From IMG/VR virus record IMGVR_UViG_3300032288_001288, positions 1 through 37,224 of that record: a stretch of DNA of 37,224 bases; one strand, written 5' to 3'. Both the position numbers and the translations under genes were made by a program. This DNA comes from a virus. Shown piece by piece: positions 2 through 31,070 of the stretch (position 1 is its first letter; every line of letters begins with the position of its first letter). The notes under the pieces were generated by a model. It made no database searches. It was not told the DNA's origin and worked only from the letters and a program-made list of their open reading frames with translations.

Positions 2-391
2 ATGATGCGTCGATGCTATAACCCAGCAGACAAGGACTACCCGCGATGGGGCGACAAAGGCGTTTCCGTGCATGCGCCGTGGCACGATTACGCTACGTTT
101 GCACAAGAGGTTGGGGAGCCGTCTGGGGCAGAGACGTTTGATCGAATCGACACAGCGGGAAATTACGAGCCCGGGAATGTGCGCTGGGCCTCCCCAACGG
201 TACAAGCAAGGAATATCCGGGTGCCAAAGGCGAGCAAAACCGGCGTCACGGGCGTTCTTTTCCATGGCGGGAAATACTATGCCGCCATAACAGTGAAGAG
301 TAAAAAGTATTACTCAAAGTGTTTTACAACATTGGAAGAAGCCGCAGCAGCACGTAAAGAACTTGAGCGCCTGCACTGGGGTGTAGCATGA
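2..391 (+). CDS. HNH/AP2-type endonuclease-like protein, 5' end cut by window edge
   Basis: The first ~70 residues show the phage pattern RCYNP..Y..WGDKGV...WHDY.TF....G.P....FDRID..GNYEPGNVRWA, a degenerate HNH-like module in which the DRID and GN-x-RWA blocks stand where the metal-binding fold lies. The last ~50 residues (TGVTGV....KYYAAITV....Y....F.TLEEAAAAR) match an AP2 DNA-binding domain of three strands and a helix. Relatives normally have about 10-20 residues before the RCYNP block, so the real start is probably left of base 1 and the Met at base 2 is internal. It overlaps the next gene by ATGA. Family knowledge: free-standing homing-type endonucleases that nick DNA and spread themselves. 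Activity here is not proven. Confidence 0.75.
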   Translation: MMRRCYNPADKDYPRWGDKGVSVHAPWHDYATFAQEVGEPSGAETFDRIDTAGNYEPGNVRWASPTVQARNIRVPKASKTGVTGVLFHGGKYYAAITVKSKKYYSKCFTTLEEAAAARKELERLHWGVA

Positions 392-6260: not shown

Positions 6261-9200
6261 ATGCCGTATACCGTTGCTCTTCCAGATGGCCGTGTTGTCG
6301 AATTCCCAGACAGCGTACCAAAAGAAAGGGCAGCGGAGCTGCTACGCCAACAGTTTCCGGCACCCGAACCCAAGTCCGCCGGTTTCTCAGTTAGCGACAT
6401 TTTCACCTCGCTGGGCCAAGGGGCGCTGGGTAGTACCAAGGCACTGACAGATGTTGCCGGTGCTGACAACGTCGCTTCTAAAAAGTTGCAAGAAGCCAGT
6501 GAGGCGCTGCAACAGCGCTTGTCCCCTGAACGGCAAGCTGAACTCAAACGTCAGCAAGAACGAGCGCAAAAAGCCGCAGCCTCTGGCAGCACTTGGGAAG
6601 AGATCAAAGCCGCTGCACAAAGCATTGGTGAAGCCCCGCTACAGTCCACGGCACAGGCGCTGGGCTCGTTTCTCCCCTACATTCCCACAATGTTTCTTGG
6701 CCCTGCCGCTGCCGCGCTGGGTCTCGGTACTAGGGCAACGGCTGCTGCAACCAATGTGGCGAAAGCTGCACCCGCAGCCATTGGAACGGCCCAGGGGGCA
6801 GGCGCGGTTAAGGGTGCCATCTACGAGGGCGTGTACGAGGCCGAGCGCAAAGACGGTGTGCCAGAAGATGCCGCCCGTGCAAAAGCCACCGCCGCACAAG
6901 ATTACTTTGGCAAAAACATTGACCAGATTTTGCTTGGTGCGGGCGTGGGGTATGTCTCGGGCAAGTACGGTGCAGAGAGCCTGCTACGCCCCGGCGCTGC
7001 TGCTAAAGCTGAAGGATCAATGCTGGGTAGGGTCGGCACGGCGCTGGCTACGGATGTGCCGACAGAAGCGCTTCAAGGTGGCCAAGAACAGTTTGCATCA
7101 AACCTTGCGCTGCAGCGTGAAGGGCGAGACGTCCCTTTATTTCAAGGGGTGGCCGCACAGGCCACGCAAGAAGGTCTTATGGGTGCGCTGGGTTCAGCGC
7201 CTGTTGCAGCCATACGCGGCCCCGGTGACGTTAAGCTGCGGGAAGAACAAGACCGTCGGGCACAAGAAAGTGCACGCCTGCAAGCTGAAGCCGAAGCCAA
7301 ACGTGCCGAACAAGACGCCTTTCGGCAGACCCCCGCATATTTGGACGACCTTGAGCAACGCTTCGCCACGCTCAAGACAACGGAACAGCAACTCAAAGCA
7401 GCTATTCCCGGCAAGGTAGACAAGGACGATCTGCTGGCGGTAGAGGAAAAACGCCGGGCTGTTGAAGCGCTTAATGAGTTTAAGAAGAGTGACGAGTACG
7501 GCAACACCATTGATGAATACACAGCGGCTTACGATCAGCTTCGCCCTCGGGTGCAGGAGCGGAAAGCAACAGAGCGCGAGCAGCAGCGCGTTGAGCGTGT
7601 TGGGGCAGCGCCGCAGGGAACTCAGCTTGACCTAGCGGGGGAACCCGGCGCTGTGCAGGACATGTCGCAGATGGGGCAGGTCAGAGCGCTTGAGCAGTAC
7701 ATCAGCTCGTTCGACAAGCAGATAAAGCAAGCTCAGACTGCTGAAGACACTAACCAAGTTCTGGCGCTCAAGAATAAACAGTATGACGCGCAGCAACAGA
7801 TTGCAGCTTTGCTGCCTGACCCGTCGATGCTGGCTGATGCCAAAGCCCTGGCGCAGCGTAATCTTGAAACCTACCAGACGCAGATTAAGACCCTTGCTGA
7901 GCAGGCGGACAAAAAACCTGAACAATACCGGCAACTTGAGCAGCTAAGCAACTTAGCCAATCAAGTGCGGCAAGCTATAACAGGCATTGAGGCTACGCAA
8001 AAAACGGTAGAAAAGTATAAGCCTGTTGAAGTTCAAAAGCCTATTGACAAGACGCAAGAGTTGAATAAGCTGACCAAACAGCTTAGCAAACAGGCGGAGC
8101 TTGGTGAAGACGTTACGCCAACGCTGGAAAAAATCCGCGCACTAGAAACTGTTGCCGAGCAGCCGTCGCTGTTTAGTGAAGAAGACTTGCGCACTGTTAC
8201 CCCGAAAGGGTTGGGTGACTTCATTGCAGACGAGCGCGAGCGCGTCAAAGCGTTGCGTGAAAAACTTGACAGCGAGAGAGCTGCGATGCAGCGCATGGCC
8301 GCAACGCCGCAAACAGAAACTTCGGAAGAAGTGCAGCGTAGGCGTAAAGAGCTTGTTGAAGAAGCGCGTAAAACTGCTGAACAGATCAAACAACGCAATC
8401 AAGACCTTGTAGATATTGAGCGGTTGCAGCAACTTAGCGAGCAGTTCAATCAGCAGCGGCGCACACTTATGGCGCAGAACAAACCTGTGCCTGAGTTGCT
8501 TAACAAGCGGCTTGCAACGTTGCAGCAAGACATCGAGTCAACAACAATGCGGCTCAAGGCTCGGGAGCCTGTACGGGAGGGTCAGCAAACGTTGGCACCG
8601 GCTGCTCCTGAAGGAGAGTTTGCCCCTCGCGTTACCGATGCGCAGCTTATGGAGCAACGTGATCGGGACATTGCCGCGCTGTTGGATCAGTATCTGCCCG
8701 GCGCTTTGGGTGTTACGCCCAAGCAAGAAGTGCTGCAGATTCAGGGACCGGAGGGTCCGCGTGAAGCCCGGATAACAACTTTGGGCGGTGAAAGTTACAA
8801 GGCTTTGCGACAGGAGTTGGAGAACATTCAATCACGGCGGAACAACGTTGTGGAAACGTTGTTTGAAGTTGGTGGGCCTGCGGCAGATGCGCTGCGCAGT
8901 GAGATTGTTATGCTGGTTACGCGTGAGGTTGAGTTGCAGCGCCAGCTCAACAAGCTAAATGCGCTCAGTCCCGAATACCGACAAGACCTGCAGTCACTTG
9001 TTCGCGGCGCATTTACACGCGTCAGTGCTATTCCAAGAAACCGCACTCCCAATCTTGCAGAGCAGCAGTACCTCGATGCCGTTGATAACTTGCAGAGTGT
9101 TGACGATGCAACGCTGGATGCCATCTATGAGATGAACAAACTGGCGTATGACGCTAGGCGGCGTGGAGTTGTAGACATAACTGACTTGGTGCAAAACAAT

Positions 9201-12200
9201 CCTGTAATGCAGGCAGGACGCGATGCACAAGCCCAGTTGTCTGCTGCGCAACGACGCGTTGAAGAGGCGGCTAAAAATATGCCGCAACTGCCAGACCTTA
9301 CTGAGCAGTCGCTTGACGACAAACTTGATGCGTTGGTTAGCGAGTTTTCTGAAGGCACGCCCAAAGAACTTGCTGCAATTAGATCAAAAGCACGGCGTGT
9401 ACCAGCCGCCGTGCGGCCCCCAGCTTTGTTGGGCGCAGACATTCCTGGCCAGATAGAAGCCAACAACCGGCAGATTGAGCAGCTCAATCAGGACATTCAG
9501 TACGCTGGCAAACCGTCAGACGCTGAGAAAGTTGCTGCCCTTAATGCGATGAAGGCTGAGCGCGACCAACGCAGGGCTGAGAACAAGCGCCTTGCGGAAC
9601 AGTACAACCGTTTGCAAAAAGAAAGTGCGCCAGAAGAGACCGGCGAAGTTGCTGACATGCGGCAAGAACTTGCCACCATTGAGCGCACGCTTGCGGCAGG
9701 CACGTTTGAAAACAATGCCAATATCACCCGGCAGCTTGAGGCTGCGCGGGATGAACTCAAAGGCCGGATTGAAGCGGCGGTCGGGCCTGCGGTTTCTGAA
9801 GAAACGGCTACCGAAAGAGAGCTTAAACAGCTACAGGCGCAACTGGAAGAACAACGTAAAAAAGAACAGACGCCAGAAGTTGAAAAAAAGATTGCCACGC
9901 TGGAAGGGCAAATCAACCAACTTGAAGGACAGCGCGAGTTCCTTCCCGCCGCTGGGTTCCCATCCACTGCGCTGGCAGGCCGTCTGAAACCTGTACCCGC
10001 CGAAGACCTGACCAAAGCCCGCACTGCCGTTGTTGCTGCAACGCAAAAAATTGAAGACATCCGCAAAGCAGCAATGCGTGTGGCCGACATGGGTGAGCAG
10101 TACTTCCGTGAAGTTGCAACGACGTACCAACTGCAGATTGACAAAGAAAACCAAGCGCTAAGCAACATTAAAAAACGAATTGCAGACTTGTCTGACGAAC
10201 AAGCAGAAACAACAAAAGAAATTAACGCTGCAAAGTCGCCTGAAGATAAAGCAAAAGCAATCAAAAAACTTGAGGAGCTGCAAGAGCGAGAAGTCAATCT
10301 TAAAGACTTGCTAACTGTACGTGAGCGGCGCTCCGAGGCAATGCAAGAAGCCCGTGCAGAAGTGCAGCGCTTTCTTAACCTTGCGCGATTAGCAGGCGTA
10401 AACAAAACAACCAACTTGCGCGAGAGCCTTGACCAAGCGCTTGACCGTGCGCTGGCTGACAAAGACAAGAAAGAAGCTGCGCTTGCCGAGCTGCAAAAGA
10501 AACAGCGCATGTACGAGCAGCAAGAAGCTGCTAGGCGCGGCATAGACTTTGGCGAAGCTGAAGCTGAAAAGATCACTGCTGGTGAAGCAGAAGGTTTTGT
10601 GTCTGGTCGCGGCAAAGCGCTGGGCGAAAAGCCCAAGGCCAAGCGTAGCTGGGTTGTCAGCAAAGACAGCAAGGTTCAGGTCATTAAGCCAGACCAGTCT
10701 AAGAAATTGCAAGACGCAATTCAAAGCGCCGTGGCTTTGGTAGGTGAAGCACGCCGTGAGAAAGAAACGGCAAAAGAAGCCTTGAAAACCCAGGCAATGT
10801 CTGCCGACCGTGTGGCAGAACTTAAAGCAGCGCTTACTAAACTTGAAGCGCAGCTCAACGCGCACTACACCCCAGCGCAAGCGGCAGAACTTCAAAACGA
10901 GATTACACGCCTGCGTGAAGCACTGGCTACGGCCCCTGTGCCTCCCGCTGTTGCCGACATTGCGACCACGTACGCCAAAGCGACAACCGCTACAAAAGGT
11001 TTGCCTGCGTCCGAACGTGTGGCACAGATGCTATTTGAGGCAGGCATCAAAGAGAAAAAAGCTGCGGCAAAATTAAGTGCCGCTGAGCAAGGCGCTGCTG
11101 CTGCCGAGAACAAGTACGAGTCGTCTAGAAAAGCGCGTTTGCAGGCTGAGAAAAAACTTGCGCGGTTGAAAGACCCCAAAAAGATTCAGGGCGTCAAACT
11201 GCAAATTGGTAACTTGGACGGGGCTTCGCAAAAACTGCGTAATGATATTGCGGATGCTATTAACGCACGCCGCCGCGCTGAAGAGAATTACATGGCCGCC
11301 CGTCTGGAGCGGCTGCTGCTTAATCAGCAAATGGGTGAGCACGCCAAGCGTGAAGCTGCAAGCATTACTGCTCAGTTGGCCAGCGCTGCGGATACTGTGA
11401 CCGCCCTGCAACAGCAGTTGGCTACGGCAGAAGCTAACGAGGCCACAATGCGCGGCAAGCTCGATAAGAGCAGCGCTGAGCTGGAAAAAGCCCAAGAAGA
11501 CGCAGAAGTTGCACGGCAAGCCGCACGCAACGCTGGGCGACTGGCTGAAACGAAAGCCCGACGCGACGCACTGGATGCAGCTAGGGCCGCGCAGGAACGC
11601 GCCAGGACTTTGCAGGCTGGCCTTGGTTTGCCCGGCAGACGCATAGAGCGCGACACCGCAGGCAAGCTTATGACGGCGGCGCAGGCGGAGATTCGCCAGC
11701 GTATGGCCGCTGCGGAAACAAACTTGTCGAAAGCCATTAAGGCAGGCGACCAAGCCAACATTAAAAAGTACACCGCTGAAGTTGAAGCTACAACCAGAGA
11801 GTTGGCACAGGTGTACGGCAAAGCGCCAGTTGTTGAAACTGAGGTTGGTGTTGAGCGTGCGGCTGCGCCGCAACCTGCTGTTGTTGAAGGTATGCGCTCC
11901 ACTTCGCGCCGTGAAGGCCCGGCTGTTCGGTATGTGCGCGGTGGCAGCAAAGCCATCATGCAGTCTGGCGTTGTCAAGCTGCGGGCTGCTGGTCTGTCAC
12001 AAGAAGCTGCCAATGCGGTTAGCCTGTACGTTGCCAAGAACAAGATCAGGGGCGCGAAGACTACGGAAAAAATCGAGGAGCTGACCAAAGCTTTTGATGC
12101 GTTGACTGAAGGCATGACCGAAGAGCAGGTCAAGGCAGCGGTGGCAGAGGGCAAACGCCTTATGGGGCTTGGCCCAACGGCGGAATTGATTGCCAAACGC

Positions 12201-15200
12201 GCCTCATACCAAGAAGCGCTTGCAGACGTAAACAAGGCGGAACAAGAGCTGCGTGAAGCTAAAACACCGCTAACCAAAGAACTGGCGCAAGATGCGTTGA
12301 CGCTGGCAGAGCAGCGTGTGGAAAAAGCGTCCAATGCGTACGATCAAGCTAAAGCACTGTACGAAACGTCGCAAATCAAACGTGGCAAGCAGGCCGAAAA
12401 GGAAGCCGTTGAAGCGTTGTTTGACGAGGCAGAAATTGCGCAAGACACAAAAGCCGCTAAGTTGGGTAAGGGCGCAAAGCGCACTGCTGCAACGGTTGAG
12501 ACCAGCGCAGCTCCTGAACAAGACGAAGATGTTGCTGGGCTTGGGCTAGACCTTCCGACAGAAAACAAAGACGTTGCAATTGAGTACACCACTGCAACGC
12601 GTACCCCTGCGGACTTGCTGGTGCAGCAAGCTATCCTTGACGGACGGCTACAAGATGCGCTGGATCGGTTGAGCTACTACGGCGCAAACGAACTGATCCG
12701 GCAAAGCGCCCGAGAGCTGCGTCCGCTGGTGTTGCGCACCAAGATTGTTATTGACCCAAACCTGACTGTTGACGGTAAGTCTGTTCCGGCAGCGTTCAGC
12801 CCAGAACGCAACACTGCTTATTTTCGTCCAACGGAAATCAACGACGAGAACATCATCCACGAGGTGATACACGCCGCTACGCTGCGGGTGTTGCGTATGC
12901 CGGAGGCTGAGCTTACGGCGCGGCAACTGGGGGCCAAAAAAGAACTTGCAGCTATCTTTAAGCAGCTTGAAACCCGGACAGACCTAGCCAAACAGTACGG
13001 TCTGGAAAACGTTGAGGAGTTTGTTTCTGAAATACAGTCCAACGTTGAGTTCCGTGCGGCCATTGACACCAAGCCTTGGTACAAGCGTGTGTGGAACGCC
13101 CTTGTGCGGCTGTTTAGCAAGGCACCGAATGAAACGCTTAGCGAGCGTGCGGGGCGTCTGGTCAGGCAGATTTACCTGCCGTCGGCCAAGATTGCGGGGC
13201 CAAGCGAAACCGTAGCATCTGGTGGCAACAGAGTGCAGGCGGATATGTATCACGGTTCACCGAACACCGAGATACAGACTTTTGAAGGGCTTACATTTTT
13301 TACGCCCAACAAAAATGTTGCGGTGCAGTATGCCAACGGCCAAGTGGCGTTTACCGGCAAAACGGCCAACAAGGGCGGCAAAGTTTATCCTGTGTCTGTT
13401 TCGACCGTAAACACTCTTGACCTCCGAAAACCTGAGCACCGCAAAATTTACGAAGAAGCACGTGCCGCGTGGAACAAAACTGCTGACGTAGACGCCCGTC
13501 TACCTGCTATCACAAGCGAAGGATTCGTAATGTCCAACTCGGGGCTACCCGGTTACGGACGAATTCGCGCTGTTCTTGAGGCTATGCCGCAGTTTGATTC
13601 TGCGTTTGTTGATGAGGGGTCGCAGGGCGTAGCGTTGGCGGTAGTGGATGGCTCATCGGCAAAAATAAACACCGGGGCTGACCTTGTAGCTTCTGCGTTT
13701 AGAGGCAAGCCGCAAGAGTCCTCTATGGTGGGGCGGCCCGCCGGTACGCTGGCTACGCTGCACGGCAATTTCTTTGGTCTGGCCGGGCGGGTACAGCTTG
13801 TTGATCGGTTGGCGGCTGCTGACAAAGCGTTTGTGGAAGGCCAAAAGGCAGGCAATCTGTCATCGCTGGAAGCCGAGAACGCCCAATACTTCATGCGTAT
13901 GGGTGACATGACAACACAAGCTGCTGGCCAGTTCATCACTACGGGTCCGGTCAGCATTGTGAAAGACCGGCTGGATAACAAAGTGGAAGAGCGCTATCAG
14001 TCACAGTCCGGGGCAAACCTTGTGACTATGGCTGAGTACATGGAGCGTGCCGGGCAAGAAGGGCTTGGGTCTGCGCAGGAAGTCGAGACGTTGCTAACCG
14101 TCAAGATTGCCGGTGATCGCGCCAACGCTCTGCCTCGGGGCTGGGAGCGTCTGTTTTCTGACAACCCCGCTAAGGCCAAGGCTGAGTACGACGCTGCTGT
14201 TGCCAAGATTAACGCCAACCCGGCGGCCAAGAAGTTTATGGATGCTGCAGCCGCAGAGTACAAGGCGTACAACGATGGGCTGATGGACTTTGCCGAGCAA
14301 ACGGGATTCATAGCCGCAGAAGAAGCTCGCCGTCTAAAGAAGACGCCCTACGTTCCGTACTACCGGATCGACAACGGTGTGGTCAAGCTGTTTGTGGACC
14401 GCGAGACTCCGCTGGTCATCGGCAACATCAAGGACAACCCAGACCTTCAGCAACTGCTTGGCGACAACAAGCAGATCATGCCGATACTGACCAGCGCTGT
14501 GCAAAACACATTCATGCTGACCCGCATGGGGCTGCGCAACAAGGCTACGCAAGAGACGGCATCGGCGCTGGAGAAGGCCGGGTTTGTGACCAAGATGGGC
14601 GAAGGCATGGGGCTTGCCAACGTCAACACCGTCCACTACAAGTACAAAGGCAAACCGTACTTTGCAACCATTGACGCGGATCAGTTTGGTATCCCGGCAG
14701 AACTGATCGTCAAGGGCATGGAGGGTATCAAGACTACGATCCCGGACCTTGTGCGGTTGATGGGTATTCCGGCTGACTGGATTCGCACGTTTGTTACGCG
14801 CTCTCCGGCGTACGTGCTGCGGCAGTTGATTCGTGATCCGATGAACGCAGCCATTACCGGCGGGGTGGACGGCGTGCCTGTGCTCAACGCACTGAAGCAG
14901 TTTGCCAAGATGAAGGCTGGCCGCAACCCCTCGGCTGACGCTTTGATGCGCGGGTTGGCTGTGAGCAGCAACATCTACACCGGCAACGAGCAAGACATGC
15001 AGAAGTTCCTTGAGGCTGCTTCCAGTGGGCGTGGGAAGTGGAGCAAGATGATGGGCATGTTTGATCAGCTTGCGCTGGAGTCGGATGCGGCAACACGCAC
15101 CGCCATCTACGAAGACGCACTGAAGAAAGGTTTGTCCGAGCGGCAAGCTCAGTTCCGTGCGCTGGAGGCGCAAAACTTTAGCCGCCGTGGCCTGTCACCC

Positions 15201-16271
15201 AGCGTGCAGTACCTATCGACGCTGGTACCCTTCTTCAACGCGCAGATTCAGGGTCTCGATGCGCTGTACCGCAGTTTCCGTGGCGACATGCCGTTCTCTG
15301 AAAAGCTGGAGATTCGTAAAAAGCTTGCGGTCAGGGGGTCGCTGTTGATACTTACTGCGTTGGGTTACGCCTTCATGATGCGCGACAACGAGGAATACAA
15401 GAAGGCTACGCCGGAAGAGCGCTACAGCAACTTCTTTGTGCCGCTGCCCGGCACCAAAGAGATGTTCAAGATTCCAATCCCCTACGAGGTTGGCTTGCTT
15501 TTCAAGGCGCTGCCTGAGGCGATACTGGACAGCATCCTCGGGGATACAAAAGCTCAAGAAGCTGCCAAAGGTATCGGCAAGTTGCTCATGCAGTCGGCCC
15601 CCGGAGTTATTCCGGCAGCAGGCAAACCGCTGATTGAGGCTGCGTACGGGCAGACAATGGTTGGGCCAATTGAGTCTGAGCGGGAACTGAAGCTGCCCGC
15701 AGGCCAGCGCTACCGTGAGGCTACGCCTGAAGTGCTCAAGACCCTGGGTTCGTACACGGGCGAGGTGGGAATATCGCCGCTGATGCTTGAGCATCTTGCT
15801 AAGGGCTACACCAGCATGTTGGGCGTGTCGTTGCTGCGCATGCTGGACCCCGTGATGGGTGAAGCCCTGGACAATAAGGCGACCGCACCACTGAGCAAGA
15901 TGCCGTTCTTTGGCGGGTTGTTCCAGACAGCCGATGGCCGGTTCCTGATCGAACGCGCTTACAGCCGCATGGAAGAAATTACGCAGGCGGTTGAGGGGTA
16001 CGAGGACTTGCAAAAGCGTGGGAAGAAAGCCGAGGCGAAGGAGTTTGCGCAGCGTAAAGCGGACTTGCTGGCAGCAGCCGACATGGCCGGTACGTTCCGT
16101 CAACGCTCAGGGGATATGTTTGCCGACGAGCGGGCCATCCGCGCAGAGCCAAGCCTTACCCGTGAGCAGAAAGACGCGTTGATTGCAAAGCTCAAGGCGG
16201 CACAGCAGGAGGAGGCGCGGCAGTTTTACGCGGCTTCCGAAAGAACCACACGCCAACAACCCCGTCCTTGA
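6261..16271 (+). CDS. Giant 3336-residue polyvalent virion protein: coiled coil, zincin, ART-like and LPD38-like domains
   Basis: ATG 6261 follows GAGGT by 6 bases. Residues 1-35 carry LPDGRVVEFPDSVP. Residues ~134-240 are Ala/Gly-rich and hydrophobic with several membrane-like helices. About 330-2090 is an extremely charged coiled coil. Residues ~2115-2290 form a metalloprotease-like unit: H2200-E-V-I-H2204 with E2252/E2253 or E2257 (EEFVSE) as possible third ligand. About 2328-2470 look like an ADP-ribosyltransferase: Y2330-H2331-G-S at the start, a TFFTP...A..YA block, and D2451-E2452 near the end. About 2495-3330 resemble LPD38 of polyvalent proteins, including VPFFNAQIQG and a hydrophobic helix near 3026-3041. 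Known theme: such multidomain proteins are packaged and enter the cell with phage DNA to counter defences. No frameshift seen. Enzyme activities are predicted from motifs. Confidence 0.8.
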   Translation: MPYTVALPDGRVVEFPDSVPKERAAELLRQQFPAPEPKSAGFSVSDIFTSLGQGALGSTKALTDVAGADNVASKKLQEASEALQQRLSPERQAELKRQQERAQKAAASGSTWEEIKAAAQSIGEAPLQSTAQALGSFLPYIPTMFLGPAAAALGLGTRATAAATNVAKAAPAAIGTAQGAGAVKGAIYEGVYEAERKDGVPEDAARAKATAAQDYFGKNIDQILLGAGVGYVSGKYGAESLLRPGAAAKAEGSMLGRVGTALATDVPTEALQGGQEQFASNLALQREGRDVPLFQGVAAQATQEGLMGALGSAPVAAIRGPGDVKLREEQDRRAQESARLQAEAEAKRAEQDAFRQTPAYLDDLEQRFATLKTTEQQLKAAIPGKVDKDDLLAVEEKRRAVEALNEFKKSDEYGNTIDEYTAAYDQLRPRVQERKATEREQQRVERVGAAPQGTQLDLAGEPGAVQDMSQMGQVRALEQYISSFDKQIKQAQTAEDTNQVLALKNKQYDAQQQIAALLPDPSMLADAKALAQRNLETYQTQIKTLAEQADKKPEQYRQLEQLSNLANQVRQAITGIEATQKTVEKYKPVEVQKPIDKTQELNKLTKQLSKQAELGEDVTPTLEKIRALETVAEQPSLFSEEDLRTVTPKGLGDFIADERERVKALREKLDSERAAMQRMAATPQTETSEEVQRRRKELVEEARKTAEQIKQRNQDLVDIERLQQLSEQFNQQRRTLMAQNKPVPELLNKRLATLQQDIESTTMRLKAREPVREGQQTLAPAAPEGEFAPRVTDAQLMEQRDRDIAALLDQYLPGALGVTPKQEVLQIQGPEGPREARITTLGGESYKALRQELENIQSRRNNVVETLFEVGGPAADALRSEIVMLVTREVELQRQLNKLNALSPEYRQDLQSLVRGAFTRVSAIPRNRTPNLAEQQYLDAVDNLQSVDDATLDAIYEMNKLAYDARRRGVVDITDLVQNNPVMQAGRDAQAQLSAAQRRVEEAAKNMPQLPDLTEQSLDDKLDALVSEFSEGTPKELAAIRSKARRVPAAVRPPALLGADIPGQIEANNRQIEQLNQDIQYAGKPSDAEKVAALNAMKAERDQRRAENKRLAEQYNRLQKESAPEETGEVADMRQELATIERTLAAGTFENNANITRQLEAARDELKGRIEAAVGPAVSEETATERELKQLQAQLEEQRKKEQTPEVEKKIATLEGQINQLEGQREFLPAAGFPSTALAGRLKPVPAEDLTKARTAVVAATQKIEDIRKAAMRVADMGEQYFREVATTYQLQIDKENQALSNIKKRIADLSDEQAETTKEINAAKSPEDKAKAIKKLEELQEREVNLKDLLTVRERRSEAMQEARAEVQRFLNLARLAGVNKTTNLRESLDQALDRALADKDKKEAALAELQKKQRMYEQQEAARRGIDFGEAEAEKITAGEAEGFVSGRGKALGEKPKAKRSWVVSKDSKVQVIKPDQSKKLQDAIQSAVALVGEARREKETAKEALKTQAMSADRVAELKAALTKLEAQLNAHYTPAQAAELQNEITRLREALATAPVPPAVADIATTYAKATTATKGLPASERVAQMLFEAGIKEKKAAAKLSAAEQGAAAAENKYESSRKARLQAEKKLARLKDPKKIQGVKLQIGNLDGASQKLRNDIADAINARRRAEENYMAARLERLLLNQQMGEHAKREAASITAQLASAADTVTALQQQLATAEANEATMRGKLDKSSAELEKAQEDAEVARQAARNAGRLAETKARRDALDAARAAQERARTLQAGLGLPGRRIERDTAGKLMTAAQAEIRQRMAAAETNLSKAIKAGDQANIKKYTAEVEATTRELAQVYGKAPVVETEVGVERAAAPQPAVVEGMRSTSRREGPAVRYVRGGSKAIMQSGVVKLRAAGLSQEAANAVSLYVAKNKIRGAKTTEKIEELTKAFDALTEGMTEEQVKAAVAEGKRLMGLGPTAELIAKRASYQEALADVNKAEQELREAKTPLTKELAQDALTLAEQRVEKASNAYDQAKALYETSQIKRGKQAEKEAVEALFDEAEIAQDTKAAKLGKGAKRTAATVETSAAPEQDEDVAGLGLDLPTENKDVAIEYTTATRTPADLLVQQAILDGRLQDALDRLSYYGANELIRQSARELRPLVLRTKIVIDPNLTVDGKSVPAAFSPERNTAYFRPTEINDENIIHEVIHAATLRVLRMPEAELTARQLGAKKELAAIFKQLETRTDLAKQYGLENVEEFVSEIQSNVEFRAAIDTKPWYKRVWNALVRLFSKAPNETLSERAGRLVRQIYLPSAKIAGPSETVASGGNRVQADMYHGSPNTEIQTFEGLTFFTPNKNVAVQYANGQVAFTGKTANKGGKVYPVSVSTVNTLDLRKPEHRKIYEEARAAWNKTADVDARLPAITSEGFVMSNSGLPGYGRIRAVLEAMPQFDSAFVDEGSQGVALAVVDGSSAKINTGADLVASAFRGKPQESSMVGRPAGTLATLHGNFFGLAGRVQLVDRLAAADKAFVEGQKAGNLSSLEAENAQYFMRMGDMTTQAAGQFITTGPVSIVKDRLDNKVEERYQSQSGANLVTMAEYMERAGQEGLGSAQEVETLLTVKIAGDRANALPRGWERLFSDNPAKAKAEYDAAVAKINANPAAKKFMDAAAAEYKAYNDGLMDFAEQTGFIAAEEARRLKKTPYVPYYRIDNGVVKLFVDRETPLVIGNIKDNPDLQQLLGDNKQIMPILTSAVQNTFMLTRMGLRNKATQETASALEKAGFVTKMGEGMGLANVNTVHYKYKGKPYFATIDADQFGIPAELIVKGMEGIKTTIPDLVRLMGIPADWIRTFVTRSPAYVLRQLIRDPMNAAITGGVDGVPVLNALKQFAKMKAGRNPSADALMRGLAVSSNIYTGNEQDMQKFLEAASSGRGKWSKMMGMFDQLALESDAATRTAIYEDALKKGLSERQAQFRALEAQNFSRRGLSPSVQYLSTLVPFFNAQIQGLDALYRSFRGDMPFSEKLEIRKKLAVRGSLLILTALGYAFMMRDNEEYKKATPEERYSNFFVPLPGTKEMFKIPIPYEVGLLFKALPEAILDSILGDTKAQEAAKGIGKLLMQSAPGVIPAAGKPLIEAAYGQTMVGPIESERELKLPAGQRYREATPEVLKTLGSYTGEVGISPLMLEHLAKGYTSMLGVSLLRMLDPVMGEALDNKATAPLSKMPFFGGLFQTADGRFLIERAYSRMEEITQAVEGYEDLQKRGKKAEAKEFAQRKADLLAAADMAGTFRQRSGDMFADERAIRAEPSLTREQKDALIAKLKAAQQEEARQFYAASERTTRQQPRP

Positions 16272-19849: not shown

Positions 19850-20341
19850 TTAGTCGATGGTGTGGTGAATAGCCTTGGCAGCGTTGTATGCCGAAGCTGC
19901 TTCCTCGACAGTGTCGTACGCGCCAAGACGCACACGCCTGCCGCCAACACCAATCTGTGCAACGAATTTTCCGCTCATCTCACAGACGCCCAGTATGCCT
20001 GTCTTGTTGTTCCGCATCGCCTTGATGCGGTTCCAACCATTTTCCGCGACAGATACATCACGCAGATTCATGATGCGGTTATCGCTTGGGCAGCCGTTGA
20101 TGTGGTCGATCTCAGCCGCAGGCCATGTACCGTACGTCAGCAGCCACGCAAGGCGATGTGCCTTGAACTCATAGCCGAGCAAACGTACGCGCACATACCC
20201 CTTGGTGTCGAGCCGCCCTGTCACTGCGCCCGCCTTGCGCTTGTGACCATTCACCTTGTGGGTAAACAGCCCGGTCTGCGGATCGTAGTTCAGCAACGCA
20301 GCAACCTCTTCACGAGACACGTTGGTGTTGTACTGTTTCAT
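19850..20341 (-). CDS. HNH homing-type endonuclease with AP2 DNA-binding domain
   Basis: 163 residues. A zinc-free HNH of the phage AP2 group: HRLAWLLTYGTWPAAEIDH with D79-H80, then SDNRIMNLRDVS with N88/N92. Residues ~112-160 (NKTGILGVCEMSGKFVAQI, then RLGAYDTVEEAASAYNAAK) form an AP2 domain. Such genes are selfish free-standing endonucleases that cleave homologous loci lacking them. It lies between the SSB-like gene and the HTH gene with gaps on both sides, unlike the overlapping neighbours, and has no obvious Shine-Dalgarno. That spacing agrees with insertion. Base composition is similar to its surroundings, so the insertion is either old or from a related phage. Confidence 0.85.
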   Translation of the reverse strand: MKQYNTNVSREEVAALLNYDPQTGLFTHKVNGHKRKAGAVTGRLDTKGYVRVRLLGYEFKAHRLAWLLTYGTWPAAEIDHINGCPSDNRIMNLRDVSVAENGWNRIKAMRNNKTGILGVCEMSGKFVAQIGVGGRRVRLGAYDTVEEAASAYNAAKAIHHTID

Positions 20342-23618: not shown

Positions 23619-24284
23619 TCAATGCTTTGGGTTGAATTCGCAGTTGGTCACTTGGCACCAACCGCACAGGGGGGTTTGGGTAGGGTTCCAGATGTTGTTC
23701 TCAAAGCACGCCTCAAGCCGCGCTAGGCGCTCACGGTACTTCCACCAGAATGCGTCCTTCTGATCACGCGTCATCGACAGCTTGACCATGTCGTTCTTCA
23801 CGATGAACAGCAACGCCGAGTTGACCTTGCGGATATGCGGGAAGTGTTCAAAGACCATGAGAGACATGAGCACAAGCTGATCGCGGTCTGGGTATTTGTT
23901 GTTGCCGGTCTTCCAGTCGCCCACCCATGCCGTCAGGTTCTCATCGTCGATGATCAGGATGTCGGCAATGCCGCGCACCCATACGTCAGAAGCCTTCCAC
24001 TGCGTGGGCTTGAGGTCAATATTCAGCGCCATCTCGTACTCGGCCAGCTTGCGTCCCGGCTTTTGGATCATGGCGTCAGCTACATCTTTGAACTGGGCGT
24101 ACTGCGGGGGAATCTCCTTGCCGTCTCGTATGTACAACTCCAGCGCTTCATGCACCTGATTGCCATATCGTGTCGCCTCTGTCTCCTGAAACGGGTAGTG
24201 CTTCAAGACCTTGACCTCGTGGTACCTGCGGGCGCAGCCCTCGAAGTCTTTGAGGGAGCTGTGTGACCAAGTTACTTTTGGCAT
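23619..24284 (-). CDS. PD-(D/E)XK nuclease, Cas4/RecB type, with cysteine cluster
   Basis: 221 residues. SHSSLKDFEGCARRYH opens the fold with C17, the usual first Fe-S cysteine. Motifs: GNQVHEALE with H45, VRGIADILII with D108, VGDWKTGN with D123 and K125, and DQLVLMSLMVF with Q136. The C-terminus has CGWCQVTNC (C207, C210, C215), completing a four-cysteine set as in Cas4 and AddB where it holds a 4Fe-4S cluster. Expected role: a 5' or 3' ssDNA exonuclease for recombination or replication end processing. It shares one base (TAATG) with the upstream zincin gene stop. No Cas1, Cas2 or repeat array is present, so this is not CRISPR adaptation. Confidence 0.85.
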   Translation of the reverse strand: MPKVTWSHSSLKDFEGCARRYHEVKVLKHYPFQETEATRYGNQVHEALELYIRDGKEIPPQYAQFKDVADAMIQKPGRKLAEYEMALNIDLKPTQWKASDVWVRGIADILIIDDENLTAWVGDWKTGNNKYPDRDQLVLMSLMVFEHFPHIRKVNSALLFIVKNDMVKLSMTRDQKDAFWWKYRERLARLEACFENNIWNPTQTPLCGWCQVTNCEFNPKH

Positions 24285-27112: not shown

Positions 27113-27390
27113 TTGAAGTTCTCCTTGGGCGGTGCATCTTCCATCACCGTGTAGTTAATGTATATGTCTGCGGTTGACAGCAGCGCAGCGGCCTCCATCT
27201 CTGTGGCGTTGATGGCGATGACCTTCATCGGTTTGTTTTGCTCGCGCCCGATCAGCAGCAGGCCGTGCAGGTCTTCATCCACATAGCACTGGATGACTTC
27301 AGATATCAGCATCCGCAGATGCTGGTGTTGCTCCGGGTCCATCAGCGCCAGCATACGCTCCATGTCTTCAGCGTTCTTAATATCAGTCAT
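27109..27390 (-). CDS. Hypothetical protein, 93 residues
   Basis: MTDIKNAEDMERMLALMDPE then a helical and strand pattern (HLRMLISEVIQCYVDEDLHG, LLLIGREQNKPMKVIAINAT, ADIYINYTVMED). Cytosolic, no motif recognised. The stop is fused with the polymerase TTG start, and its last codons hold the polymerase Shine-Dalgarno, so both are co-translated. Overlaps the VRR-NUC gene by 8 bases. A polymerase accessory factor would fit the position but nothing else shows it. Confidence 0.6.
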   Translation of the reverse strand: MTDIKNAEDMERMLALMDPEQHQHLRMLISEVIQCYVDEDLHGLLLIGREQNKPMKVIAINATEMEAAALLSTADIYINYTVMEDAPPKENFN

Positions 27391-27697
27391 AAAAATCCGC
27401 CTTTGTTTTCAACCATAGTAATCTCTCTTTCAGTTCAGCGATGTTGGTCTCATTGACCACATAAGCAAACCCACCAGCGGCATGGATCGCGGCAAGCTCA
27501 CGGTCTTGCAGCGCCGTGGTCTTGCCCTTGCCTGCCTTGCACTCTATCCCAACGAAGCGTCCGTTGCAGCAACAGATGATGTCGGGTATGCCAGCGCGTC
27601 CCATGCCCGCCTGGAAGGGCGAGAAGTGGTAGATGTGTAGCTCATCGAGCACGGCCTTGACGGCCTTCTTCACCTTGGCTTCAGGAGTACTCGCCAC
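27383..27697 (-). CDS. VRR-NUC domain nuclease
   Basis: I choose GTG 27697 (VASTPEAKVKKAV) because GGGAGG lies 6 bases upstream; longer frames run into Ser/Thr/Cys-rich shadow sequence of the previous gene. 104 residues. GMGRAGIPDIICCCNGRFVG with D39, then IECKAG with E52-x-K54, and LQDREL with Q64 are the catalytic marks of stand-alone VRR-NUC nucleases of the PD-(D/E)XK group, which resolve branched DNA. It overlaps the upstream DUF3310 gene by 17 bases and the 27109-27390 gene by 8. Suggested role: processing of recombination intermediates. Confidence 0.85.
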   Translation of the reverse strand: MASTPEAKVKKAVKAVLDELHIYHFSPFQAGMGRAGIPDIICCCNGRFVGIECKAGKGKTTALQDRELAAIHAAGGFAYVVNETNIAELKERLLWLKTKADFYD

Positions 27698-28557: not shown

Positions 28558-28745
28558 TTCTTCTCCTTTGGTGCAAAGTCATCTACAGCAATACATCCAC
28601 GGGTGCGACAGCCCTCATCCATATCAGGCAGGTACTCATCCAGGGCCGTGTAAATCTTGAACCGCAACACAGAGGGTGATGCGTGATACAGGATGGCGAG
28701 GTCGGTCAGCTTCTCCACCAAAGGTTTGGCTTGTTCGTATTTCAT
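28554..28745 (-). CDS. Small helical protein, 63 residues
   Basis: MKYEQAKPLVEKLTDLAILY, then VLRFKIYTALDEYLPDMDEG and a short Cys pair (CRTRGC). AAGGAG lies 6 bases before ATG 28745, favouring it over a GTG two codons earlier. Both ends overlap neighbours as ATGA. Unknown function. Confidence 0.65.
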   Translation of the reverse strand: MKYEQAKPLVEKLTDLAILYHASPSVLRFKIYTALDEYLPDMDEGCRTRGCIAVDDFAPKEKK

Positions 28746-28975
28746 TTCCACTCCTTATCCCAGTCGTCGAACAGGGGCATGGGGTCTTGTTCCCTTGCTC
28801 GGATGGCGGCTGCTGCGTCCCACGCATGGCTGTCTCTGTCTCGATTGCCAACTTCTTCACACACTTTCGCACACGCCTCGCGCTCGGCGAGTACACACTT
28901 CTGCGCCTCTTCAGCAATCAGTTCCGCCTGCCATGCGACGATCTCTGGACACAACTCCATGATCCAGTTTTTCAT
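28742..28975 (-). CDS. REACAK-family small protein, copy 1
   Basis: 77 residues. The central EREACAKVCEEVGNRDRDSH and the following AWDAAAAIRARE show the REACAK...AIRAR pattern shared with at least three other genes up to 30131. The N-terminus MKNWIMELCPEIVAWQAELI is unique to this copy. It ends in PLFDDWDKEWK, whose last codons hold the next gene's Shine-Dalgarno. Such proteins are frequent in phages and their function is unknown. Confidence 0.65.
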   Translation of the reverse strand: MKNWIMELCPEIVAWQAELIAEEAQKCVLAEREACAKVCEEVGNRDRDSHAWDAAAAIRAREQDPMPLFDDWDKEWK

Positions 28976-29205
28976 GCTCGCCCCCTTGCTCTGATTGCGT
29001 CAGCGCAGTCCTTGGCTTCGTGGTTGTAAAAGGTTTCGCACAGCTTCGCACACGCCTCGCGCTCATCAGCCCGGACAAGGGCGGCGAAGCGTTCAAGTTC
29101 AGAATTCGTGCAGGTAAAGGAAAACTGCGGCCTGTAATTGAAACGGTCCAATTCTTCAACGTCAAAACCAGCCTCCCGCGCCATTGCAATGATGTCATCT
29201 TTCAT
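28972..29205 (-). CDS. REACAK-family small protein, copy 2
   Basis: 77 residues: MKDDIIAMAREAGFDVEELD, a variable middle (FNYRPQFSFTCTN), then LERFAALVRADEREACAKLC and CADAIRARGRA. Both ends are almost identical at DNA level to the 29635-29862 gene, while the middle differs. Joined to neighbours by ATGA on both sides. The final RGRA codons overlap the AGGGGGCGAGC segment before the next ATG. Unknown function; helical. Confidence 0.7.
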   Translation of the reverse strand: MKDDIIAMAREAGFDVEELDRFNYRPQFSFTCTNSELERFAALVRADEREACAKLCETFYNHEAKDCADAIRARGRA

Positions 29206-29426
29206 TTCTCATCCCTCCATGTGCCATCCTTAAAGATGAACCGTGTAAACAGCAGGCTTCCACCCAGGTCGTAGTGTGCTGCCATGCAAGGCAGGTCGTT
29301 GAGCGCAGGTGATCGGGACTGAAGACCCACGCTACTCTTGTATTCATGCGGGAAGTAGTACATGGTTGTGTACGCCTCCTTGGGTGTGTCTGGTGGTGTG
29401 GTGAAGTCGTACAGATCGCGTTTCAT
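29202..29426 (-). CDS. Hypothetical protein, 74 residues
   Basis: MKRDLYDFTTPPDTPKEAYT, then TMYYFPHEYKSSVGLQSRSP and GGSLLFTRFIFKDGTWRDEK. Aromatic and strand-rich with no motif recognised; FKDGTW at the end looks like a beta-hairpin. AGGGGGCAAGC precedes the ATG. It separates two REACAK copies and overlaps both by four bases. Unknown function. Confidence 0.6.
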   Translation of the reverse strand: MKRDLYDFTTPPDTPKEAYTTMYYFPHEYKSSVGLQSRSPALNDLPCMAAHYDLGGSLLFTRFIFKDGTWRDEK

Positions 29427-29638
29427 GCTTGCCCCCTTTCCCTGATTGCGTCAGCAATCTGTTCGTCCGTCCATGTTTCGCGCCAATGCTCGTCAAAATA
29501 CTTCGCACACGCCTCTCGCTCGGCTTTAACCGCCGCGCACCAGCCCTCCCATGCCCAGAAAGCAGCGGAATCTGGCTCGTAAGGGTTGTCGGTCAGCGAC
29601 TCGCCGTTGTTCCACCAACTGTTGAATTGATCGCTCAT
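29423..29638 (-). CDS. REACAK-family small protein, copy 3
   Basis: The start is ATG 29638 (MSDQFNSWWNNGESLTDNPY), after GGGGGAAAGA; a longer frame runs through the end of the upstream gene. 71 residues. It has AEREACAKYFDEHWRETW and EQIADAIRERGQA at the end. The Trp/Asn-rich N-terminus (SAAFWAWEGWCAAVKAE) recurs in phage proteins. Same boundary design as its neighbours. Confidence 0.65.
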   Translation of the reverse strand: MSDQFNSWWNNGESLTDNPYEPDSAAFWAWEGWCAAVKAEREACAKYFDEHWRETWTDEQIADAIRERGQA

Positions 29639-29862
29639 TCTTTCCCCCTTGCCCTGATCGCTTGCGGCACTCCGGTCACAGCTTGCGTATAAAACCTGAG
29701 CATGTTCTCGGCTACCTTTGCGCACTCCTCGCGCTCATCAGCACGGACAAGGGCGGCGAAGCGTTCAAGTTGATTTTCAATATACCCGTCGTCAACCCAC
29801 ACCCCTGATGTATCAGTTTGCAACCCAGCCTCCCGCGCCATTGCAATAATGTCTTCTTTCAT
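29635..29862 (-). CDS. REACAK-family small protein, copy 4
   Basis: 75 residues. It has the same MK(E)DIIAMAREAG start and LERFAALVRADEREECAK block as the 28972-29205 gene, with a different middle (DTSGVWVDDGYIENQ) and a C-terminus VTGVPQAIRARGKE. The AGGGGGCAAGA leader precedes the ATG. This pair shows that genes of this family exchange segments. Confidence 0.7.
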   Translation of the reverse strand: MKEDIIAMAREAGLQTDTSGVWVDDGYIENQLERFAALVRADEREECAKVAENMLRFYTQAVTGVPQAIRARGKE

Positions 29863-30131
29863 TCTTGCCCCCTTGCCGCAGCGATAGCGGCGCGAGCTAC
29901 GCTGAAAACGCGAGCAATGTCTGACTCATCTGGGCCGTCCGTCAGCGTGTTTACCATGTCACGCAGCGCCTCCAGCAGTTGCGCGTTAACTGCCTCCAGG
30001 TGGCGCAGTTCGGCGGCTGAGTCTTCGACAAACCAACGGGCAACGTCAATCACACTGTCTTCAGCGTCAGCCTGTTGAATGGCTCGTGTCAGCGCATCAG
30101 CCAGCCGCTGTGCTTCTGTCATCTCAGTCAT
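29859..30131 (-). CDS. Small helical protein, 90 residues
   Basis: ATG 30131 (MTEMTEAQRLADALTRAIQQ) has AAGGAG 7 bases upstream; the longer frame begins inside the zinc-ribbon gene. All-helical: VIDVARWFVEDSAAELRHLE, LEALRDMVNTLTDGPDESDI, ending ARAAIAAARGQE. It has no cysteine block but shares the RG(Q/K)E ending that overlaps the next gene's leader. Unknown function. Confidence 0.65.
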   Translation of the reverse strand: MTEMTEAQRLADALTRAIQQADAEDSVIDVARWFVEDSAAELRHLEAVNAQLLEALRDMVNTLTDGPDESDIARVFSVARAAIAAARGQE

Positions 30132-30264
30132 GGTTACGCTCCTTGAGCTTGTCAAAACAATGCCAGCACATATAGCCGTGTCCATGCACGGCCCACCATA
30201 CAAACGACACAGGGCTGTTGTTGAACCTGTTCTTTAAGCACTTGGGGCACTGTTTTATTTTCAT
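30124..30264 (-). CDS. 46-residue zinc-finger microprotein
   Basis: MKIKQCPKCLKNRFNNSPVS ... GHGYMCWHCFDKLKERNHD with C6, C9, C33 and C36, a C-x2-C / C-x2-C zinc ribbon. AAGGAG lies 6 bases before the ATG. The start overlaps the stop of the HNH/AP2 gene (ATGA) and its end overlaps the next gene by 8 bases. It may bind DNA, RNA or protein. Confidence 0.7.
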   Translation of the reverse strand: MKIKQCPKCLKNRFNNSPVSFVWWAVHGHGYMCWHCFDKLKERNHD

Positions 30265-30716
30265 GTGTTCTCCTTGTAGGCTTGATGAGCTAATTCAGCA
30301 GTTGGAAATAAGCCAAGATAAATTTGCTTCCCGTTCTTGTGGATGTGTGCGGCGTATTTGTTCCTGCGTTTCACAACACCCAAAAGTCCAGTTTTGTTTT
30401 TTGTGGTTGTTGATTTTCTATTTTGCAAATTTATGCTGTGCGAAACATCGCGTAGATTTTCAAGTTTGTTGTTTGCTGGATTGCCGTCAATGTGGTCAAT
30501 GTCACCAACAGGCCAAGACCCATGATGCAATAGCCAAGCAACACGATGGGTCAAATATTGCTTGCCGCAAAACTTGAGCTTTCGATACCCGTTTTTCATC
30601 ATGTTTCCAGCTTCAGTCCCGTTGGCTGTTGAGCGTCTTGGGTGTTTGATCCACCAAACTTTTCCATCTTGAGGCGTGTACATCAAGTGTTCTAAAATCA
30701 TTTTTTCAATAGTCAT
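30261..30716 (-). CDS. HNH/AP2 homing-type endonuclease, AT-rich, recently acquired
   Basis: 151 residues. HRVAWLLHHGSWPVGDIDHI with D74-H75, NPANNKLENLRDVS, and an AP2 domain at ~107-148 (NKTGLLGVVKRRNKYAAHIH, YLGLFP). AAGGAG lies 7 bases before the ATG. It is visibly AT-rich: bases 30361-30480 have 44 G+C of 120 by hand count, against 36 of 60 at 30961-31020. The composition, HNH/AP2 type and the gap before it point to a selfish gene from another source. Its first 13 coding bases are identical to those of the upstream gene. It is intact, so probably active. Confidence 0.85.
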   Translation of the reverse strand: MTIEKMILEHLMYTPQDGKVWWIKHPRRSTANGTEAGNMMKNGYRKLKFCGKQYLTHRVAWLLHHGSWPVGDIDHIDGNPANNKLENLRDVSHSINLQNRKSTTTKNKTGLLGVVKRRNKYAAHIHKNGKQIYLGLFPTAELAHQAYKENT

Positions 30717-30734: not shown

Positions 30735-31070
30735 TCATTGTAGACCATTCTTCTCCTTGAGTTTGGCTTCGATGGCTTTTACAAGATCAGGCATGGTGAC
30801 GTACTTGTAAAACTGATCGCGCTCTCTATCCGTCAGCCCTACCCACTGGCGCTGTGCTGCGGGTGGGGTGGTGTATAGGGCACCATAGCCATCCCATCCT
30901 TTAACTCGGGTGATTATGTTTTCACCGTGATTAACCCACGCGACCGGCTCCTGCTTCTTGGTCGTCTCAATGGCGGTGCGGAGGGCGGTGATGGCCTTGT
31001 CGGACTTGATGCCAATGTCTGCGTGTGCCTCCAGCGCCTCCAGCGCCAGCTTCATGGTTTCAATAGTCAT
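30735..31070 (-). CDS. Conserved phage protein (EPVAWV / LYTTPPAAQRQWVGL)
   Basis: 111 residues. MTIETMKLALEALEAHADIG, ITALRTAIE, EPVAWVNHGEN and GALYTTPPAAQRQWVGLTDR form a recurring phage module whose function is unknown. It looks like an assembly of short reusable blocks: a helical repeat, an EPVAWV strand and a PPAAQRQWVGLTD linker. GGAGGG lies upstream of ATG 31070. It overlaps the 31060-31296 gene by 11 bases. Confidence 0.7.
   Translation of the reverse strand: MTIETMKLALEALEAHADIGIKSDKAITALRTAIETTKKQEPVAWVNHGENIITRVKGWDGYGALYTTPPAAQRQWVGLTDRERDQFYKYVTMPDLVKAIEAKLKEKNGLQ

Follow-up and report, generated by a model that had tools for sequence, protein, structure and literature searches.

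Near-random assortment of gene halves at a short coding joint in arrays of tiny phage genes

Described mosaic systems of small phage genes

In the ninR region of phage lambda, small early genes are packed as 'interlinked genes' with ATGA overlaps (Kroger and Hobom 1982, as described in PMC8022706). T4-type phages carry PeSL cassettes, promoter/stem-loop elements located between genes (Arbiol 2010 and Comeau 2014, as cited in PMC4503421). Moreover, the Ea22 and DUF551 early proteins of lambdoid phages are mosaics with a handful of variants and whole-domain swaps (PMC10834534), and Smug et al. 2023 reported the exchange of fragments of at least 50 aa among phage proteins, notably tail, lysin and replication proteins (PMC10684548).

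The arrays described here consist of small genes with an EREACAK...AIRAR pattern (REACAK genes). Like lambda ninR, they form a mosaic region of tightly packed small genes with ATGA stop/start overlaps. However, no intragenic exchange at a universal joint is described for ninR in that source, while REACAK genes appear to be built from half-gene modules, and the array proteins gave no Pfam or PHROG match above cut-off that would relate them to nin proteins. As reported for the T4 PeSL, repeated short DNA would mediate gene shuffling among related phages; unlike those regulatory elements, the REACAK joints are coding sequence, and one of them lies mid-gene. Promoter and stem-loop elements between genes are ruled out at the array junctions, because the 4-base overlaps leave no intergenic space. 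Like Ea22 and DUF551, the REACAK proteins look like small early accessory proteins in which a shared segment is combined with interchangeable C-terminal domains, but they have hundreds of sub-domain modules at one 18-base joint, and none of the 72 family members compared with Pfam matched Ead_Ea22 or DUF551. Finally, ongoing fragment exchange and one-sided homology between otherwise unrelated proteins are shared with phage domain mosaicism in general (PMC10684548); unlike in that survey, the REACAK modules measure ~16-50 aa, belong to unannotated proteins and meet at a fixed joint. Intergenic joints of such a kind are already known. For a universal, intragenic, mid-helix joint together with a coding ribosome-site junction, no description was found in the open-licence literature, and searching under the REACAK motif letters returned unrelated work only.

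Layout of the REACAK array

The window, meaning the whole stretch of 37,224 nucleotides that was analysed (IMG/VR record IMGVR_UViG_3300032288_001288), is a 37 kb virus record encoding a family A DNA polymerase, an SNF2 helicase, a PD-(D/E)XK exonuclease, a DUF927 primase/helicase-like protein and GP88 and DUF932 proteins. It also contains a 3336-aa open reading frame (6261-16271, plus strand), whose product would probably be a giant protein that is ejected or belongs to the virion interior. The array lies on the minus strand, upstream of the polymerase gene, and is made of very small genes overlapping by ATGA. The first-pass annotation had pointed to neighbouring genes with common REACAK...AIRAR blocks in the range 28742-30131, and we confirmed four of them, all on the minus strand: R1 (28742-28975, 77 aa), R2 (28972-29205, 77 aa), R3 (29423-29638, 71 aa, in which the front half differs, MSDQFNSWWNN...) and R4 (29635-29862, 75 aa). 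They have short DNA blocks in common, with unrelated DNA between. The same range holds two genes without the motif, a cassette between R3 and R2 (29202-29426, minus strand) and a cassette (29859-30131, minus strand) whose product ends in ...ARAAIAAARGQE* and which joins R4 by the same type of junction, Shine-Dalgarno/ATGA. R1 to R4 are linked by 4-base ATGA stop/start overlaps, the R2-R3 link running via gene 29202-29426.

The EREACA joint occupies 18 nt in R1 (28868-28885) and recurs in R2 (29047-29064) and R3 (29504-29521); R4 has EREECA in its place (29719-29736). The gene junctions were mapped to 28972-28998 (R2 to R1), 29423-29449 (R3 to the 29202-29426 cassette) and 29635-29661 (R4 to R3), joints and junctions all being on the minus strand. 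The R2 to R1 junction consists of a Shine-Dalgarno site plus overlapping stop/start, with the IRARGRA codons ATC AGA GCA AGG GGG CGA GC followed by ATGA. Note that the 3' end of R1 is not the usual IRARGQ* and continues into a tail, MPLFDDW..., which also ends a different gene in a close relative (locus L001, 770-1168); R1 is an in-frame fusion product.

R2 and R4 had been said to have near-identical blocks of 38 and 45 bases. The blocks were recovered, although these lengths proved slightly short: the conserved start blocks (29165-29206 in R2, MKDDIIAMAREAG; 29822-29863 in R4, MKEDIIAMAREAG; minus strand) are 42 nt long and 93% identical, and the central blocks (29044-29099 and 29716-29771) are 56 nt long and also 93% identical, with unrelated DNA of unequal length between start and centre. 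A third block stands at the 3' end (ATCAGRGCAAGGGGG..ATGA). The top ungapped segment score between the two genes was 44, against a maximum of 11 in 200 shuffles. Moreover, the back half of R4 (MLRFYTQAVTGVPQAIRARG) sits behind another front half in locus L023, and the 29202-29426 cassette is found among different neighbours in L001 and L023, with aa identities of 96% and 93%, respectively.

Other features were observed around the array. The 29859-30131 protein carries QRLADAL...SAAELRHLEAVNAQLLEAL blocks, and one REACAK relative has a similar AAELRRL block ahead of EREACA, which suggests that blocks of this type may be another shared module. The protein encoded at 30735-31070 (minus strand) has an ...EPVAW...GALYTTPP... 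pattern, which is common among small proteins of phages and prophages; in L023 the start of such a protein (MTIETMKLA) is fused to a REACAK gene, and the 30735-31070 protein may belong to the same parts pool. There are also three HNH/AP2-like genes of the homing-endonuclease type, at 30261-30716 (minus strand, with an HNH_3 match) and, called by eye, at 19850-20341 (minus strand) and 2-391 (plus strand). One of them stands at the array edge, where double-strand breaks could stimulate exchange.

Codon statistics were restricted to 150 genes whose loci had been retrieved with a peptide pattern or the polymerase; loci added later were left out, having been retrieved with the DNA of the joints. 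In these genes IRAR has AGG as its second Arg codon in 83% (background 9%), the preceding Ala codon was GCA in 90% (background 23%), and 132 of the 150, all of which could be scored, overlapped the next ORF by ATGA. The AGG/GCA excess and the overlap together indicate that GCAAGGGG..ATGA provides the following gene with its ribosome-binding site and start, which is the lambda nin-type feature of an upstream gene carrying the next ribosome-binding site. Unlike in ninR, the terminal AIRARG reads largely as the translation of that Shine-Dalgarno site. When sites were sampled by the ribosome-site DNA alone, 88 of 124 ended ERExCA genes and the others ended unrelated genes. IRARG/Shine-Dalgarno endings on genes without EREACA were seen in L315 (an HNH-like protein), L316, L197 and L358.

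Assortment of front and back halves

Searches with the polymerase, the family alignment and three DNA patterns gathered 491 loci, nearly all of them uncultured viral contigs, with 420 distinct REACAK genes, of which 405 unique ones were usable for module comparison. The family is almost absent from phage records and GTDB genomes: R2 was matched by three GenBank records among 50,697 phage records, and the family alignment by nine loci in 84,980 GTDB species genomes. The carriers of REACAK arrays are freshwater phages, and from a few MAG contigs we infer that the host belongs to the Burkholderiales. Note that the use of joint DNA patterns to find part of the loci inflates identity at the joint, not outside it.

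The proteins were split at EREACA into a front (all that precedes it) and a back (EREACA to IRARG), leaving out the conserved flanks. Among the 405 genes, and bearing in mind that pair counts are non-independent observations, 112 pairs had fronts at least 80% identical, and their backs were less than 35% identical in 100 cases and at least 60% in 11. Backs were at least 80% identical in 227 pairs, with fronts below 35% in 156 and at least 60% in 12. Nearly all multi-member front clusters (44 of 47) were combined with at least two back clusters, and 71 of the 73 multi-member back clusters with at least two front clusters. Three complete 2x2 sets were found, in which two fronts and two backs occur in all four combinations, so vertical descent alone is insufficient. 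As a control, neighbouring genes and the first part of the polymerase were cut in half and anchored, and just 5 of 911 pairs were mismatched; this replaced an earlier control with a coverage filter, which was biased towards concordant halves. The comparison yielded 181 one-sided pairs (one half at least 85% identical in aa, the other below 30%), 13 of them with DNA at least 98% identical on the shared side. Assortment was already evident in the smaller set of loci retrieved without DNA patterns, where 3 of 25 front-similar pairs were concordant. The halves assort INDEPENDENTLY; their combination is near-random and almost independent. Diversity is high among the backs as well (269 clusters), and they swap just as often as the fronts, of which 186 of 405 have a DIIxMAREAG type start. 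In L151, L187, L212, L240, L300, L381 and L398 an extra segment (..WM..R.YATGHGDT.EDLL.ELEWQV..) is inserted between front and EREACA, possibly a third type of module.

Identity switches sharply at both joints. Where a pair has just the front in common, its DNA is mostly 0.83-0.98 identical until ~3 codons before the joint and 0.88-0.97 identical through EREACA; identity then declines over four codons to reach 0.22-0.35 from the fifth (one codon at 0.47). Pairs sharing only the back stay at background identity up to EREACA and then rise to 0.80-0.98. The second switch is at the gene junction: pairs with a common back are 0.85 identical at ATGA, but only 0.4-0.5 and further on ~0.31-0.37 downstream of it, and front-sharing pairs show 0.32-0.41 upstream of ATGA, the ribosome site excepted. 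The edges of exchange among the relatives fall at the blocks predicted from the window. Copies of the EREACA joint from unrelated genes are ~80-95% identical, with a longest exact run of 11 bases in the median; runs of 21 bases are reached by 8% of pairs and runs of 31 by 0.4%.

Exchange takes place on a short time scale, since phages with flanking DNA 94-99% identical already differ in module content or order. Loci L185 and L286 agree at 93.6% of positions over 4.7 kb, the polymerase included, and their REACAK genes share a stretch of 119 bases that ends at the last EREACAK codon, with unrelated sequence beyond; this shared front half has diverged by 9%. The polymerases of L067 and L070 are 98.9% identical and their flanks 96-99%, yet REACAK genes number five in L070 and one in L067, and the common cassettes are reordered. 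L001 and the window have polymerases 95% identical in DNA and 97% in protein, and no REACAK gene in common. The 29202-29426 cassette is 92% identical in DNA between them, with its edges at the junction blocks; homology to L001 starts exactly at the R3 junction (window 29449 to 29200), another gene replaces R2 and R1, and homology resumes within the R1 tail. These results strongly support the earlier proposal of mosaic reuse as opposed to simple duplication: block exchange is pervasive among the relatives, and stable copies with independent histories, which were looked for there, were not seen. The suggestion that the locus generates diversity also fits, because the repertoire is open and nearly all recurring modules occur in several combinations.

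Predicted proteins, route of exchange and rival explanations

AlphaFold modelling of R2 with 72 sequences gave an alpha-beta-beta-alpha-alpha arrangement (mean pLDDT 86.4, pTM 0.70). In this model EREACA (R2 residues 48-53) falls within a long helix (34-57), and the joint would thus sit within a secondary structure element and not at a domain boundary. A predicted hairpin, the region of lowest confidence, forms the variable front part, and the variable back part starts at the end of the long helix. Purifying selection acts on the modules (dN/dS 0.10-0.22). No confident family or function for the array proteins came from Pfam, PHROGs, PADLOC or PDB sequences; matches to Nif11, FH2 and CBF/NF-Y histone were dismissed as noise, being below cut-offs or in 1 of 72 members. 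Almost all fold matches in BFVD are proteins without a name from uncultured phages and probably belong to the same family, and those in PDB (DgkA, Rru_A0973) all had Z <5, uninformative for a small helical protein.

In the window, the PD-(D/E)XK exonuclease (PDDEXK_1, phrog_69; 23619-24284, minus strand) is a candidate recombination enzyme. A small nuclease is also encoded that weakly resembles Holliday junction resolvases of the Hjc type (phrog_93 endonuclease; 27383-27694, minus strand). We surveyed 37 records of REACAK-bearing or closely related phages, which may be fragments, and found PDDEXK_1 in 26, ERF in 5, RecT in 3 and a serine recombinase (Resolvase) in 1; tyrosine recombinase (Phage_integrase) and reverse transcriptase (RVT_1) were found in 0 of 37. 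RecT or ERF was present in just 8 of the 37; most records, that of the window among them, had no recognisable single-strand annealing protein of these two types. The frequent PD-(D/E)XK enzymes, with no tyrosine recombinase or reverse transcriptase, make homology-directed recombination at short joints the likeliest route. Lambda Red recombination tolerates 22% divergence (PMC2327257), and such tolerance fits joints of ~18 bases that are 80-95% identical between unrelated genes.

Our results suggest that the locus is probably a recombining array of tiny two-module accessory genes, exchanged at the EREACA and ATGA joints. Each gene would consist of two modules, the front one about 30-50 aa long and the back one about 16-35 aa, meeting at the universal 18-base joint that encodes EREACA. 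A second universal joint would lie between genes, where the last codons (..GCA AGG GGN..) would double as the next gene's Shine-Dalgarno site and ATGA as stop/start. With two universal joints, any half or whole gene could be swapped in frame with translational coupling kept. Exchange would proceed by annealing or homeologous recombination at the short joints while phages replicate and co-infect, and exonuclease-type recombination enzymes of the phage, not a site-specific recombinase, would drive it. The products may share a helical scaffold that carries variable segments, and their early accessory functions would vary, some perhaps being directed against host factors. A role as small host-interaction proteins was also proposed in the first-pass annotation and may apply; no member of the family matched a known function.

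Other explanations were weighed. Paralogues of a constrained fold whose loops diverged after ordinary duplication, with no block exchange, would also show conserved EREACA and IRARG motifs with variable spacers, and REACAK genes are often adjacent (72 of 489 lie directly next to another downstream); however, the 181 one-sided near-identical pairs rule this out as the sole explanation, the 2x2 sets and the control genes, which keep their halves together, also speak against it, and we regard it as extremely improbable. Hardly more credible is the joining of different phages at repeated EREACA sequences by short-read metagenome assembly: almost all loci are metagenomic contigs, but exact runs at the joint are short, the junctions keep both register and reading frame, hardly any multi-member cluster is unaffected, and the divergence of the front shared by L185 and L286 is unexpected for a single-source chimera. 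A dedicated site-specific recombinase of the shufflon/invertase type, or a diversity-generating retroelement, acting on the joints would account for breakpoints limited to a few codons, as in a recombination site. We nevertheless consider it very unlikely, given the near absence of such enzymes from the surveyed records, the direct orientation of the copies, a joint that is no strict site, and variation that is module replacement under purifying selection, not adenine-directed mutation.

Less improbable, though still unlikely, is a reading of the back half (EREACA..IRARG) as a portable tail of general use, such as a hairpin for oligomerisation, which was fused to many unrelated proteins by illegitimate recombination and selected, the joint being a protein-level constraint only. 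A joint so short and imperfect makes such fusions, followed by selection at EREACA, conceivable. In support of this, backs are attached to very different fronts, under half of which are of the DIIxMAREAG type; EREACA is nearly invariant as protein, with synonymous sites far from frozen (pS 0.59); and IRARG endings occur also on unrelated genes, such as that of the HNH-like protein in L315. Against it, the backs too are highly diverse and swap no less often than the fronts, and the Cys codon of the joint is TGT in 87% of cases (background 31%), in contrast to the Cys four residues before IRAR, which is TGC in 75% (background 69%). This codon bias, absent at the other Cys, makes the block look shared as DNA, not only as protein.

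The reading of a recombining two-module array can be extended, tentatively, to the whole freshwater phage community: EREACA and IRARG/ATGA, kept as both DNA and protein, may be a two-joint parts standard with which co-infecting phages reassort a population-wide combinatorial library of half genes into new accessory proteins. If true, the logic would be comparable to immune-receptor segment joining, but carried out by phage homologous recombination.

What sets REACAK genes apart is combinatorial shuffling below the level of the gene, at a fixed, short, in-frame joint, with the same two halves staying together as the exception. Related phages rarely carry the same REACAK proteins. The system is tractable for studying the minimum homology for phage recombination and whether mosaicism is adaptive, and it offers a possible explanation for part of the many very small phage proteins that lack annotation, which could be recombinants drawn from a common list of parts.
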